From assembly GCF_900637055.1 (NCBI RefSeq), contig NZ_LR134338.1, positions 4,739,001-4,803,000 on the forward strand: DNA of 64,000 nt, in the 5' to 3' direction. The notes beneath the pieces were generated by a model that did not search any database, was not told where the DNA came from, and was given only the letters and a program-made list of their open reading frames with translations. Below, piece after piece: positions 29,136 through 58,823 of the stretch (position 1 is its first letter; the number at the start of each line of letters is the position of its first letter). Source of the DNA: Brevibacillus brevis (GTDB taxonomy: Bacteria > Bacillota > Bacilli > Brevibacillales > Brevibacillaceae). Made by a program: the position numbers and the translations under genes.

Positions 29136-29234
29136 TTATCACATGAAAACTATACGATGTTTTTCTTTCCGTGGCAACTATTTCTTTAGGTTAAACTTTA
29201 ACTAGGCAACCTTTTAAGAGCGTGCGTTAAGTCG

Positions 29235-29728
29235 GGCTGTCGTGCTGGGGCGGAAACAGGAGAAAACGCTCCAGCTTCTAGGGCCACCCGCTGTGGGATT
29301 GACTGCCCGACTCCATGCAAAAAGCGAAACCGCGTCCAAAGTGGTCCATTCAGGATGTGTTTCAGAGGTGGACGCTTAAAGTCGTGTTTCGCTTTTTGCA
29401 TTCCGTCTCGGTCGGCGTCCCTAAGATCTTCGCTTATTTCTCCTGTTTCCTCTACGAGCTTTCCGTGTTAAACGGGTTTTAAAAGCCTTAAAAGAATGAA
29501 GAATGTAGTCAGTTACGCTAGAGAAGAATATTTCCAGACGTAGCGACTTGGGGAGTCCTACCGAGCGGAGAAGGGATTTGCGGGCAAAAGAAACGCAACG
29601 TGCCCCTACGTCGAAGCGGCTACCACTTTTGCGTTTCCCCGCAAATCCCTTCGGAGCGGACAGTCTTAGCCCTCAGCAGGACGGAGCCTGGAGCCTAGAC
29701 TGGAAATATTCTTCTCCTCACCGCAGCC
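29235..29728. repeat. Composite nested-palindrome repeat (type A + type B elements)
   Basis: Two adjacent structured elements. Type A at 29252-29450 has 14-bp terminal inverted repeats GGAAACAGGAGAAA/TTTCTCCTGTTTCC and an inner stem GCAAAAAGCGAAAC/GTTTCGCTTTTTGC. Type B at 29521-29716 has 17-bp perfect terminal repeats GAGAAGAATATTTCCAG/CTGGAAATATTCTTCTC and an inner stem GGGATTTGCGGG/CCCGCAAATCCC. The composite is bounded by GGCTGTCGTG... and ...CACCGCAGCC. Further copies lie at 41766-43287 and 58249-58782. Frames across it are repeat-derived and not credible genes. Confidence 0.85.
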
Positions 29729-29772
29729 TCATATCCAAGACGCAAAAAAAAACCGACACCCCCAACTTATCT

Positions 29773-30735
29773 CTAAGGGCTTGCCGGCTCATTTTCATTC
29801 AAAATAGATGGAGCATCCGGTGCTTCCTCAGGAGTCGTGCGGCGCACGCTTGGTACATTTCTTGGCTCATGCTCAATTTCTGGAAAAGAGTGAACCGTCA
29901 CGTACATGCTTCCGTTACTCGCGATCGCACGGATCAAGACAGGATAGGCGTATTTGTTTTGAAACACAAAATCAGGGCCGTACCAGCTCACTGTTGCATC
30001 GCGGCCAGGTGGTACGTAGGCTACGTTTCGACTGTGGGAATAGCGTTGCATAATATGCAGACCTGCCTTGTCTACTGCATTGAACAAGGTAGACGATACT
30101 TGGCAAATTCCTCCCCCGATGCCTTCCGACAGCTCTCCCCTGACAATAATGGGCGCCTGCAAATACCCTTTTTCTTTTGTACGCTTGCCCACGACCTTAT
30201 TAAAAGAAAAGATTTCTCCTGGCAATACCACGTAATTGTTAATCGCCTGCGCGGCGAGCTTGATGTTGTGTACACGATTTCGGTTGCCTGCATTGAAATA
30301 GGTCGCATATTGTCCGATCCTTTTTTTCCGAACCTGACTGATAAGAGCTTTGTCTACCTTCGGGAATACCTCTTTGTAGCTGACATTCATGCTTGCGGCT
30401 CCCGCACCGTAAAAATAATCGTAGAACCGTGTGCGAAATGCCAGGTCATCTAACCTTCTTCCCTTGGTTTCTGGAACAATGGCCCCTGCGTTATTTATCG
30501 TCGCATTGATGGGCTCGATGTACGCTTTTTTCGCCAACTCTTCCACCATTCGCGCAAGCTTGCTTTCATCGACCAAAGGAACACCATCAAAGGGAAGAGA
30601 ATAATCAGCCCGATTGAGAATAGCTACCGTCTTGTCCTCCATCTCTATCTGTAAAAAATTCGTTGGGTCGAGGGGATTGATTAACAGTAACAGAGCCAAC
30701 GTCATAGCAAAACCCATCCGGCTGCTCACCTCCAT
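29773..30735 (-). CDS. VanW-family secreted/membrane protein
   Basis: 320 residues with an N-terminal signal or anchor segment (residues 5-21), a preceding domain (about 30-130) and a VanW domain: YATYFNAGNRNRVHNIKLAAQAINNYVVLPGEIFSFNKVVG, EGIGGGICQVSSTLFNA, YPVLIRA. VanW is named after vancomycin-resistance clusters, but its biochemical role is unknown; the domain is common in sporulating Firmicutes with wall-related domains. No van resistance genes are nearby, so this is not a resistance locus. Confidence 0.85.
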   Translation of the reverse strand: MEVSSRMGFAMTLALLLLINPLDPTNFLQIEMEDKTVAILNRADYSLPFDGVPLVDESKLARMVEELAKKAYIEPINATINNAGAIVPETKGRRLDDLAFRTRFYDYFYGAGAASMNVSYKEVFPKVDKALISQVRKKRIGQYATYFNAGNRNRVHNIKLAAQAINNYVVLPGEIFSFNKVVGKRTKEKGYLQAPIIVRGELSEGIGGGICQVSSTLFNAVDKAGLHIMQRYSHSRNVAYVPPGRDATVSWYGPDFVFQNKYAYPVLIRAIASNGSMYVTVHSFPEIEHEPRNVPSVRRTTPEEAPDAPSILNENEPASP

Positions 30736-35282: not shown

Positions 35283-35504
35283 CTGTCTGTTTCCCCCTAG
35301 CGTTGCAATGCTTGCGCTCGATTTTCTAACCTACGTCCCCTGAAAAATACTTCTCTCTACAATACTCAGTCTGCCAATGCTCATTGCGGAAAACAAGTAA
35401 TTTTTTTGTAAAGACATGCTGTTGGGCACATAGAACATAGTTGCTTGGCAATAGTATTCCTCTTTTAGGTAAAGGTATCTACTTTAAAAATCCTTGTTGT
35501 CTTC

Positions 35505-35660
35505 TGGCTGTTGTGGTCGGGTGAAGCCCTGCCACATGTTTTCCAGTCGCCTGTTTGAAGCGCTCCCGCCATTTATTCCGAAGCGGACAGTCAATCCCCC
35601 TTGCGGGGCGGAGGCCGAAGCGCAGACTGGAAATTCGCTTCTTCCCCCCACTAGAGCCAC
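35505..35660. repeat. Short type-B-like repeat with the shared terminal inverted repeats
   Basis: Starts TGGCTGTTGTGG and ends CCACTAGAGCCAC, the terminal pair seen on the larger composites. Inside are TTTTCCAGTC and GACTGGAAA arms and the type-B right half (GAAGCGGACAGTC...GGGGCGGAGGCCGAAGCGCAGACTGGAAA). It lies between phoP and the citZ-icd-mdh terminator; the rest of this 430-bp gap (35283-35504) shows nothing definite apart from the expected phoP promoter region. Confidence 0.65.
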
Positions 35661-35672
35661 TTTGACAAGAAA

Positions 35673-35700
35673 AAGACGCCTTCCCAAAGAAAGGCGTCTT
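35673..35700 (-). terminator. Terminator of citZ-icd-mdh
   Basis: Stem AAGACGCCTT/AAGGCGTCTT followed by a T run on the minus strand, 13 bp after the mdh stop. Confidence 0.88.
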
Positions 35701-35713
35701 ACATGTATTGATC

Positions 35714-41716: not shown

Positions 41717-41784
41717 TTTGGATCGCTCCTTTCTCTATAGAATGATTGTACCATAGACCCTGTACGTGGCTGTAGTGGTGGGGA

Positions 41785-42236
41785 GGAAACAGGAGAAAAC
41801 GCTCAGCTTCTAGGGCCACCCCCTGGGGGATTGACTGTACGACTCCATGCAAAAAGCGAAACCGCGTCCAAAGTAGTCCATTCATGATGTGTTTCAGAGG
41901 TGGACGCTTAAGAGCGTGTTTCGCTTTTTGCATTCCGTCTCGGTCGGTGTCCCTAAGATCTTCGCTTATTTCTCCTGTTTCCTCTACGAGCTTTCCGTGT
42001 TAAACGGGTTTTAAAAGCCTTAAAAGAATGAAGAACGCTAGAGAAGAATATTTCCAGGCGTAGCGACTTGTGGAGTCCAACCGAGTGGAGAAGGGATTCG
42101 CGGGCAAAAGAAACGCAACGTGCCCACGCGACGTAGCGGCTACCACTTTTGCGTTTCCCCGCGAATCCCTTCGGAGCGGGCAGTCTTGACCCCCAGCAGG
42201 ACGGAGCCTGGAGCCTAGACTGGAAATATTCTTCTC
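41785..42236. repeat. Repeat unit 1 of the array (A 41785-41982, B 42041-42236)
   Basis: Type A has arms GGAAACAGGAGAAA/TTTCTCCTGTTTCC. Type B has arms GAGAAGAATATTTCCAG/CTGGAAATATTCTTCTC and inner stem GGGATTCGCGGG/CCCGCGAATCCC, differing from the 29521 copy by a paired T-A to C-G change. Confidence 0.85.
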
Positions 42237-42289
42237 TCCACCGCAGCCACTTACTAAAAACCTTACAGTTGTTGCTGTAGTGCTGGGGA

Positions 42290-42755
42290 GGAAACAGGAG
42301 AAAACGCTCAGCTTCTAGGGCCACCCCCTGTGGGTTTGACTGCCCGGCTCCATGAAAAAAAGCGAAACCCGCGTCCAAAGTCGTCCATTCAGGATGTGTC
42401 TCAGAGGTGGACGCTAAAAGCTTGTTTCTTTTTTTTCATTGCGCCTCGGTCGGTGTCCCTAAGATCTTCGCTTTTTTCTCCTGTTTCCTCTACGAGCTTC
42501 TAGTGTTAGACGGGTTTTTAAATGCCTTAAAAGGTTGAAAAATCACATCTGTCACGGCAGAGAAGAATATTTCCAGACGTAGCGACTTGTGGAGTCCTAC
42601 CGAGCGGAGAAGGGATTCGCGGGCAAAAGAAACGCAACGTGCCCACGCGACGTAGCGGCTACCACTTTTGCGTTTCCCCGCGAATCCCTTCGGAGCGGGC
42701 AGTCTTGACCCCCAGCAGGACGGAGCCTGGAGCCTAGACTGGAAATATTCTTCTC
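42290..42755. repeat. Repeat unit 2 of the array (A 42290-42488, B 42560-42755)
   Basis: The type A copy is the most diverged of the array: the inner stem reads ATGAAAAAAAGCGAAAC against GTTTCTTTTTTTTCAT, so it has lost some pairing near its middle. The type B copy is nearly identical to unit 1. Confidence 0.85.
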
Positions 42756-42808
42756 TCCACCGCAGCCACTTACTAAAAACCTTACAGTTGTTGCTGTAGT
42801 GCTGGGGA

Positions 42809-43273
42809 GGAAACAGGAGAAAACGCTCAGATTCTAGGGCCACCCCCTGGGGGATTGACTGCACGACTCCATGCAAAAAGCGAAACCGCGTCCAAAGTAG
42901 TCCATTCATGATGTGTTTCAGAGGTGGACGCTTAAGAGCGTGTTTCGCTTTTTGCATTCCGTCTCGGTCGGTGTCCCTAAGATCTTCGCTTTTTTCTCCT
43001 GTTTCCTCTACGAGCTTCTAGTGTTAGACGGGTTTTTAAATGCCTTAAAAGATTGAAAAATCACATCTGTCACGGCAGAGAAGAATATTTCCAGGCGTAG
43101 CGACTTGTGGAGTCCAACCTAGCGGAGAAGGGATTCGCGGGCAAAAGAAACGCAACGTGCCCTTGCTACGTAGCGGCTACCACTTTTGCGTTTCCCCGCG
43201 AATCCCTTCGGAGCGGGCAGTCTTGACCCCCAGCAGGACGGAGCCTGGAGCCTAGACTGGAAATATTCTTCTC
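42809..43273. repeat. Repeat unit 3 of the array (A 42809-43006, B 43078-43273)
   Basis: The type A copy keeps both outer and inner stems. The type B copy is nearly identical to unit 1 apart from the loop region. The A-B spacer resembles that of unit 2, suggesting units 2 and 3 arose by tandem duplication. Confidence 0.85.
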
Positions 43274-43295
43274 TCCACTACAGCCACATAAAAAA

Positions 43296-43331
43296 ACAGG
43301 AGCAGACTGTTTTTCCCAGTCTCCCCCTGTC
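43296..43331 (-). terminator. Terminator of nrdJ
   Basis: Stem ACAGG..CAGACTG/CAGTCT..CCTGT with a T7 tail on the minus strand, 19 bp after the nrdJ stop. Confidence 0.82.
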
Positions 43332-58132: not shown

Positions 58133-58248
58133 AATGGGGCACTCCTTTCTTTGTTATCCGTTTCGATTAGATGATGTTCTAATTAGATGATAAGTTGGAT
58201 TTCTTTGTCTGTCAATTCGTAGGAGATAAAACACAAATTCTATATCGT

Positions 58249-58782
58249 TGCTGCTGGTGGCAGCGGAAAAAGGAGAAAACGCTCGAGCTTCTTGGGCCCC
58301 CTGCATGGGGGTCATTCCTGCACGTCTCCGTGGAAAAAGGGAAACCGCGTCCAAAGTAGTCCTCCCATGGAGCATGTTCAGAGGTGGACGCTTAAAGGCG
58401 TGTTTCCCTTTTTCCACTGCGCCTCGGCTGGTGTCCCAAAGAGCCTCGCTTATTTCTCCTTTTTCCTTGAAGCGGCTGTCTGTTTAGTTGTGGCTGGTTT
58501 GTCAGTGAATCAAGATGATATTAACTTCATGCAATAACTTTCAAAATGCTTTTGCCAAAGCTGCGTAGAAGAAGCGCATTTCCAGTCCAAGCGCCTCTGG
58601 AGCCCATCTCAGCGTAGGAATGAATGACGGGGAATTTAAGCTTCACTTATGGAATACTTCCTCGAAACTTCAACGTTTGAAGCGCTCCCGTCATTCATTC
58701 CGGAGCGGACAGTCTTCACCCCTTGCGGGGCGGAGGCCGAAGCGTAGACTGGAAATGCGCTTCTTCTCCCCACTACAGCCAC
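58249..58782. repeat. Diverged composite repeat (A + B)
   Basis: Type A at 58265-58466 has arms GGAAAAAGGAGAAA/TTTCTCCTTTTTCC and inner stem GGAAAAAGGGAAAC/GTTTCCCTTTTTCC. Type B at 58568-58766 has arms GAAGAAGCGCATTTCCAG/CTGGAAATGCGCTTCTTC and inner stem GGAATGAATGACGGG/CCCGTCATTCATTCC. It ends CCCCACTACAGCCAC like the other composites. Sequence differs from the other copies mainly by changes matched on both arms. It fills the gap between the ArsR-type regulator and ytoI. Confidence 0.85.
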
Positions 58783-58798
58783 TTTTCCAAACAAAAAA

Positions 58799-58821
58799 GA
58801 ACAGTCATAAAGAGACTGTTC
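58799..58821 (-). terminator. Terminator of ytoI
   Basis: Stem GAACAGTC/GACTGTTC with T6 on the minus strand, immediately after the ytoI stop. Confidence 0.85.
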
Positions 58822-58823
58822 CT

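Follow-up and report, generated by a model that had tools for sequence, protein, structure and literature searches.

A nested palindrome of about 200 bp recurs in the genome of Brevibacillus brevis, and the letters of its two arms change together from copy to copy. The locus raises the question of whether a folded structure is maintained, whether it acts as RNA or as DNA, and how its copies came to occupy their present sites. The window analysed, i.e. the whole stretch of 64,000 nucleotides, spans 4.74-4.80 Mb of a genome represented by a single contig of 6.73 Mb.

Architecture of the repeat

The original prediction had listed five copies of a type A palindrome at 29252, 41785, 42290, 42809 and 58265, and all five were confirmed in the sequence. 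The outer arms read GGAAACAGGAGAAA/TTTCTCCTGTTTCC in most copies and GGAAAAAGGAGAAA/TTTCTCCTTTTTCC at 58265, as described earlier, and the reported change of the inner stem was also found, with the 42290 copy adding a third, imperfect version. Genome-wide profiles showed that the palindrome is the left half of a composite unit of about 494 bp, in which a nested hairpin A of about 208 nt is followed, after about 65 nt of spacer, by a nested hairpin B of about 200 nt. The description as a repeat of about 200 bp is therefore correct for the hairpin but not for the whole unit, which is a facing pair of about 500 bp (Table 1). The window contains five units, one of them of a divergent type at 58.26 kb, and a decayed unit near 35.5 kb, at a site where relatives have about 200-280 extra bases; the copies at 41785, 42290 and 42809 belong to a single head-to-tail array of three. 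The second hairpin about 65 bp downstream, its opposite-strand kinship, the decayed copy and the array had not been part of the original prediction.

Table 1. Coordinates of the composite units, their hairpins and the adjacent terminators in the window.
Feature	Position	Strand	Evidence
Composite unit 1 (A hairpin, spacer, B hairpin)	29236..29729	+	nhmmer, 494-position profile, hmm 1-493
A hairpin of unit 1 (feature originally reported)	29247..29454	+	R1 226 bits, full length
B hairpin of unit 1, same family, opposite strand	29519..29719	-	R1 54.5 bits, full length
Composite unit 2, first in head-to-tail array of three	41769..42250	+	hmm 1-494
A hairpin of unit 2	41780..41986	+	R1 232 bits
B hairpin of unit 2	42039..42239	-	R1 53 bits
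Composite unit 3, second in array	42274..42769	+	hmm 1-494
A hairpin of unit 3, variant inner stem	42285..42492	+	R1 206 bits
B hairpin of unit 3	42558..42758	-	R1 56 bits
Composite unit 4, third in array	42793..43287	+	hmm 1-494
A hairpin of unit 4	42804..43010	+	R1 236 bits
B hairpin of unit 4	43076..43276	-	R1 56 bits
Composite unit 5, divergent type	58261..58782	+	hmm 13-494
A hairpin of unit 5, divergent	58260..58470	+	R1 204 bits
B hairpin of unit 5, divergent	58566..58769	-	R1 71.9 bits
Decayed unit: B-side remnant, end resembling GTGGCTCTAGTGG	35494..35674	+	122-nt match to 58675-58796
Intrinsic terminator of upstream - strand gene, 20 nt from unit 1	29743..29788	-	terminator scan
Intrinsic terminator, 6 nt from array	43290..43331	-	terminator scan
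Intrinsic terminator, 12 nt from unit 5	58794..58822	-	terminator scan
Intrinsic terminator, 13 nt from decayed unit	35672..35702	-	terminator scan

The B hairpins were hit over their full length on the opposite strand by R1, a covariance model of hairpin A, with scores of 53-72 bits, which indicates that A and B belong to one hairpin family in the facing layout A-> <-B. Since A is a palindrome, its reverse complement also scores 36-65 bits with R1, and the orientation of B was called from the minus-strand-only R1 matches of B among the matches listed. In Brevibacillus, the composite is bounded by short, roughly inverted ends (GGCTGTAGTGG / CCACTACAGCC). Folding of the A copies was better than in 200 of 200 dinucleotide shuffles (z -5.1 at 29240 and -6.1 at 58250), and the five A copies of the window reached 204-236 bits with the family covariance model, which was built from related copies and for these scores gives a meaningful ranking only. 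A different arrangement was observed in genome G007 (L373, 9568-11182), where five A hairpins lie head-to-tail at a spacing of about 352 bp, two types alternating.

Covariation and the nature of the folded molecule

The joint change of both arms noted earlier was reproduced in an alignment of 50 diverse Brevibacillus copies (A1), in which double changes occurred in 39 of 64 pairs and the double-change cells numbered 248, compared with 73 in shuffles and 32-61 when the partners were slid. Among 40 distant members, double changes affected 60 of the 64 pairs, with 672 cells versus 198 in shuffles and no more than 175 in slid controls, in an alignment that had been fitted to the structure beforehand. 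The G values summed over the structure also exceeded a tree-based null, in which the same substitutions were placed at random on the tree (1007 versus 187, sd 28; 2722 versus 602, sd 57), and pair by pair, with 12 simulations, two pairs only fell below E 0.05. The hairpin copies exchange sequence by recombination, because some orthologous copies are no closer to each other than paralogues, and the tree-based numbers are therefore approximate; as the test of individual pairs is in addition weak, given the few simulations, the result for the whole structure was relied on.

Distant members have almost wholly different stem sequences and common loop motifs in the same order, the kept internal-loop motifs being GGGAAG near GACTGyCCGCTCC, CAAA, GAAG, CCGCTGGG and a downstream CAAAG-like motif. 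Comparison of the sequences thus strongly supports a hairpin fold that is maintained while its letters change, and the structure in RNA or DNA that had been proposed from five copies is borne out by covariation beyond phylogeny and by loop motifs retained while the stems are replaced in other genera and in a further family. As an RNAalifold consensus calculated on the gapped alignment gave a poor structure, averaged single-sequence folding of both strands was used instead; a MAFFT core alignment misaligned the stems.

Palindromes might also be kept perfect by arm-to-arm copying, through template switching at the hairpins, with no selected function. This process would account for the joint arm changes and for the symmetry of the mismatches, and the tandem arrays show that recombination is active here. 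However, template switching would erase the non-complementary internal loops that are conserved across families, and both the facing-pair layout and the spacing to terminators are left unexplained. Arm-to-arm correction, named as an alternative in the original prediction, may contribute, but by itself it does not account for the conserved mismatched loops; already weakened by them, it appears very improbable as the sole explanation.

Folded RNA tolerates G.U pairs and does not tolerate A.C. In the stems common to the folds of both strands, 93 G.U and 104 A.C mismatches were counted, and the stems of a second alignment contained 43 and 55 respectively, whereas the tRNAs of the same loci showed 39 G.U and 0 A.C as delimited by ARAGORN, which is itself biased toward G.U. 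Because the two mismatches are equally common in the stems, DNA hairpins (or arm correction) are favoured over RNA, short of proof. The alternative, a multicopy family of structured non-coding RNAs, is consistent with a long covarying helix bearing conserved internal loops, as occurs in structured RNAs, and with the alignment A3, where G.U exceeded A.C by 112 to 68 after fitting to a covariance model that itself prefers G.U. The unfitted alignments, with no G.U excess over A.C against the 39 to 0 of the tRNAs, speak against it, and tens of copies, facing pairs and a placement beyond terminators would be odd for an RNA gene. Moreover, the Rfam scan of the window returned only a tRNA above the gathering score and a permissive scan of the array a single chance-level hit; a known RNA family, which the original prediction had considered as a possible identity, was therefore rejected, and an RNA family of any kind is in our judgement quite unlikely.

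Genomic position and history of the sites

The genome carries dnaA-dnaN-recF at base 1, as read from the translations, and its GC skew switches near 3.05 Mb. With the orientation defined as in the original prediction, the element blocks meet the replication fork head-on in 39 of 41 cases (p 8e-10 against chance, p 0.007 against an assumed 80% of leading-strand genes), and part of this bias is explained by the orientation of the genes. At all 8 sites located between converging genes on the long arm, the hairpin facing the leading-strand gene is B. In five relatives, the copies among the matches listed likewise form two contiguous orientation arcs. One element was observed inverted with its flanks across the origin (494604 in G022, 6226503 in G000), its fork orientation being kept.

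The element blocks are intergenic, and an intrinsic terminator lies just outside the B flank in 31 of 41, mostly 6-28 nt away. By comparison, 180 of 429 genes have any terminator within 100 nt (p 5e-5), and the other flank of the blocks has one in 4 of 41 cases (p 1e-9). Most units lie, at this distance, after the terminator of a leading-strand gene. Of 46 outer flanks in a second Bacilli family (f12), 23 carry a terminator directed at the hairpin, mostly 24-42 nt from the stem, and 3 carry one directed away; neighbouring hairpins less than 300 nt apart are convergent in 16 cases, with 0 divergent and 0 tandem. In the other Brevibacillaceae genera, close neighbours are convergent in 3 of 3 cases and the terminator preference is weak (11 toward versus 7 away). 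At two f12 loci (L337 and L382), a strong terminator is found between the facing hairpins instead of outside them.

The nucleotide search detected the element in 22 of the 26 genomes of the genus, and the named matches were all from Brevibacillus, namely B. formosus, B. porteri, B. fortis, B. reuszeri, B. invocatus and B. centrosporus. Full-length relatives were retrieved with R1 from 32 of 39 genomes of the order, representing 5 of 7 genera, with up to at least about 60 copies scored per genome. Among 300 genomes across the class, R1 matches (E 1e-6, a rough value owing to a short calibration) were confined to Brevibacillaceae and f12, where 3 of 11 genomes carry 26, 18 and 2 copies. Genomes G003 and G025, several sister genomes and 8 of the 11 f12 genomes are devoid of the element. 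Searches of the literature and of Rfam returned no description of the hairpin family. Carriage on plasmids or phages was also considered and rejected, as the nucleotide search of plasmid and phage records gave no match to the element.

All the full-length sites of G022 that were compared are occupied at the same place in G000, with flanks about 95% identical, and the elements therefore hardly move now. The length of the tandem arrays differs by whole units between species. The 29-kb site is free of the element in G001 and G009, which are about 80% identical, and unrelated genes occupy the place of half a unit at certain sites. We infer movement of the element from this patchy distribution and from the site differences at about 80% identity; in the aligned flanks, no target duplication was evident and no base-exact empty site was resolved.

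Two sites of the window differ individually in relatives. In G006, G002 and G018, most of the divergent unit (window 58219-58793) is replaced, and the gap, about 1.8 kb longer, carries an apparent AraC-type regulator and an apparent MFS transporter. G022 has no A hairpin at the site corresponding to window 29206-29518, where an intact B hairpin follows about 1.6 kb of other DNA. A composite-transposon reading was considered for G001, in which a pair of inverted A copies flanks 3 kb, and was dismissed, as the content looks like an ordinary mosaic with an IS-type gene.

Examination of Y1 and reverse transcriptase (RT) genes revealed no transposase or other trans-acting gene for the element. None of the Y1 genes examined has an R1 match less than 1.5 kb away, and the suggestion that copies might be shared with an insertion-sequence gene was not upheld, none of these genes being linked to the hairpins. 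Y1 genes are absent from G027, G034 and G035, which carry 30, 15 and 7 copies of the element. The only Y1 match of G000 (6.50 Mb, L061) belongs to a single IS605-type element consisting of a Y1 transposase and a TnpB-like gene; an IS200/IS605 origin or a RAYT-driven REP was rejected, since this sole Y1 gene resides in an ordinary IS605-type element with different ends. A product of a retron or other RT was also rejected, the genome having two RT genes with hairpins near neither. One of them (2.41 Mb, L211, 1222-2295) follows a phosphoribosyltransferase-like gene and encodes a retron-like RT of 357 aa with YADD and VTG motifs; it represents a possible retron defence system. The other (6.60 Mb, L212, 550-2394) encodes a protein of 614 aa that matches a reverse-transcriptase domain and may be an RT of the defence type.

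Interpretation and relation to known systems

The repeat may be half of a non-autonomous, repetitive DNA element that acts as single-stranded DNA hairpins and has spread beside terminators, a reading to which we assign a probability of about 0.45. It draws together the maintained fold, the loop motifs and the facing pairs in two families with the position after terminators, the single fork orientation, the fixed sites with a changing tandem number and the lack of a G.U excess. The action as single-stranded DNA hairpins and the mechanism are what we infer from these observations. Terminators of leading-strand genes would fold on the lagging-strand template, where they would be exposed as single-stranded DNA, and the element would have inserted beside them, moved by a trans-acting enzyme able to recognise the folded loops. 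Position and orientation would therefore arise together. The elements, by now nearly immobile, would grow and shrink through tandem recombination and would be tolerated, and perhaps put to use, in intergenic gaps at 3' ends.

The chief rival to a mobile origin is a host-useful, giant BIME-like DNA element at 3' ends, whose position and orientation would be kept by selection, the hairpins binding a DNA protein (e.g. gyrase or a nucleoid protein) or insulating the genes nearby from read-through and supercoiling. Sites fixed across species at about 95% identity, the location at 3' ends beside terminators in two families, the conserved loops and a paired facing layout as in BIMEs (PMC2817692) are all compatible with such a role. 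However, the element is patchily distributed, being missing from most of f12 among others, and at some sites the hairpins are decayed or replaced by genes; hosts clearly live without them, and we hold a host-useful role to be rather unlikely. An old, terminator-targeting element family is our best reading. That it represents a new class of mobile DNA, with two giant facing hairpins, an enzyme reading folded single-stranded DNA and lagging-strand terminator hairpins as targets, is possible but doubtful.

It is rare in bacteria for strong structural covariation to be combined with tens of copies in a genome and with a strict layout, i.e. facing pairs at a fixed short distance past terminators and in one direction relative to replication. 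The family offers a natural system for studying the recognition of folded single-stranded DNA at replication forks, and it bears on why intergenic palindromes gather at gene ends and on terminator hairpins as general landing sites for mobile DNA. On the practical side, unannotated hairpin arrays can break draft assemblies and confuse the annotation of RNAs and repeats.

Among known systems, REP/BIME elements with RAYT transposases (PMC2817692, PMC3733652) are similar in being intergenic palindromes with inverted pairs, frequent tandem arrays and many copies per genome, and inverted pairing is also found here, close neighbours being convergent in 16 of 16 cases in f12 and in 3 of 3 in the other Brevibacillaceae genera. 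REPs are 20-40 bp long with a GTAG/CGTC tag (PMC3733652), whereas the present elements are nested hairpins of about 200 nt with conserved loops; GTAG occurs near the element ends in Brevibacillus and is absent from the f12 copy read. Among the Y1 genes examined, a RAYT gene between two inverted copies was not found, and no RAYT is linked to the elements.

Group IIC introns favour intrinsic terminators. They recognise a DNA stem-loop as target, and their priming makes use of lagging strands at forks (PMC10190682). The 31 of 41 blocks beside a terminator and the 39 of 41 in one orientation constitute a likeness to these introns and not membership, as the elements differ from them in having neither a ribozyme match in Rfam nor a linked reverse transcriptase. 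MITEs of Bacilli and enterococci (Bcr1, EFAR; PMC3733652, PMC2267715) are comparable as short non-coding repeats of mobile origin, and the inverted ends of the Brevibacillus composite are a further point of similarity. The hairpins described here are, however, much larger and structured, and no parent transposon was found among the Y1 and RT genes examined.

Finally, the 1997 genome paper on Bacillus subtilis reportedly described a repeat of about 190 bp with compensatory changes and the same fork-related orientation, considered a possible structural RNA. By this description, the two repeats would be alike in size, compensatory changes and fork orientation. The element is placed within the large intergenic palindromic repeats, and homology with the 190-bp repeat of B. 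subtilis would change its novelty.
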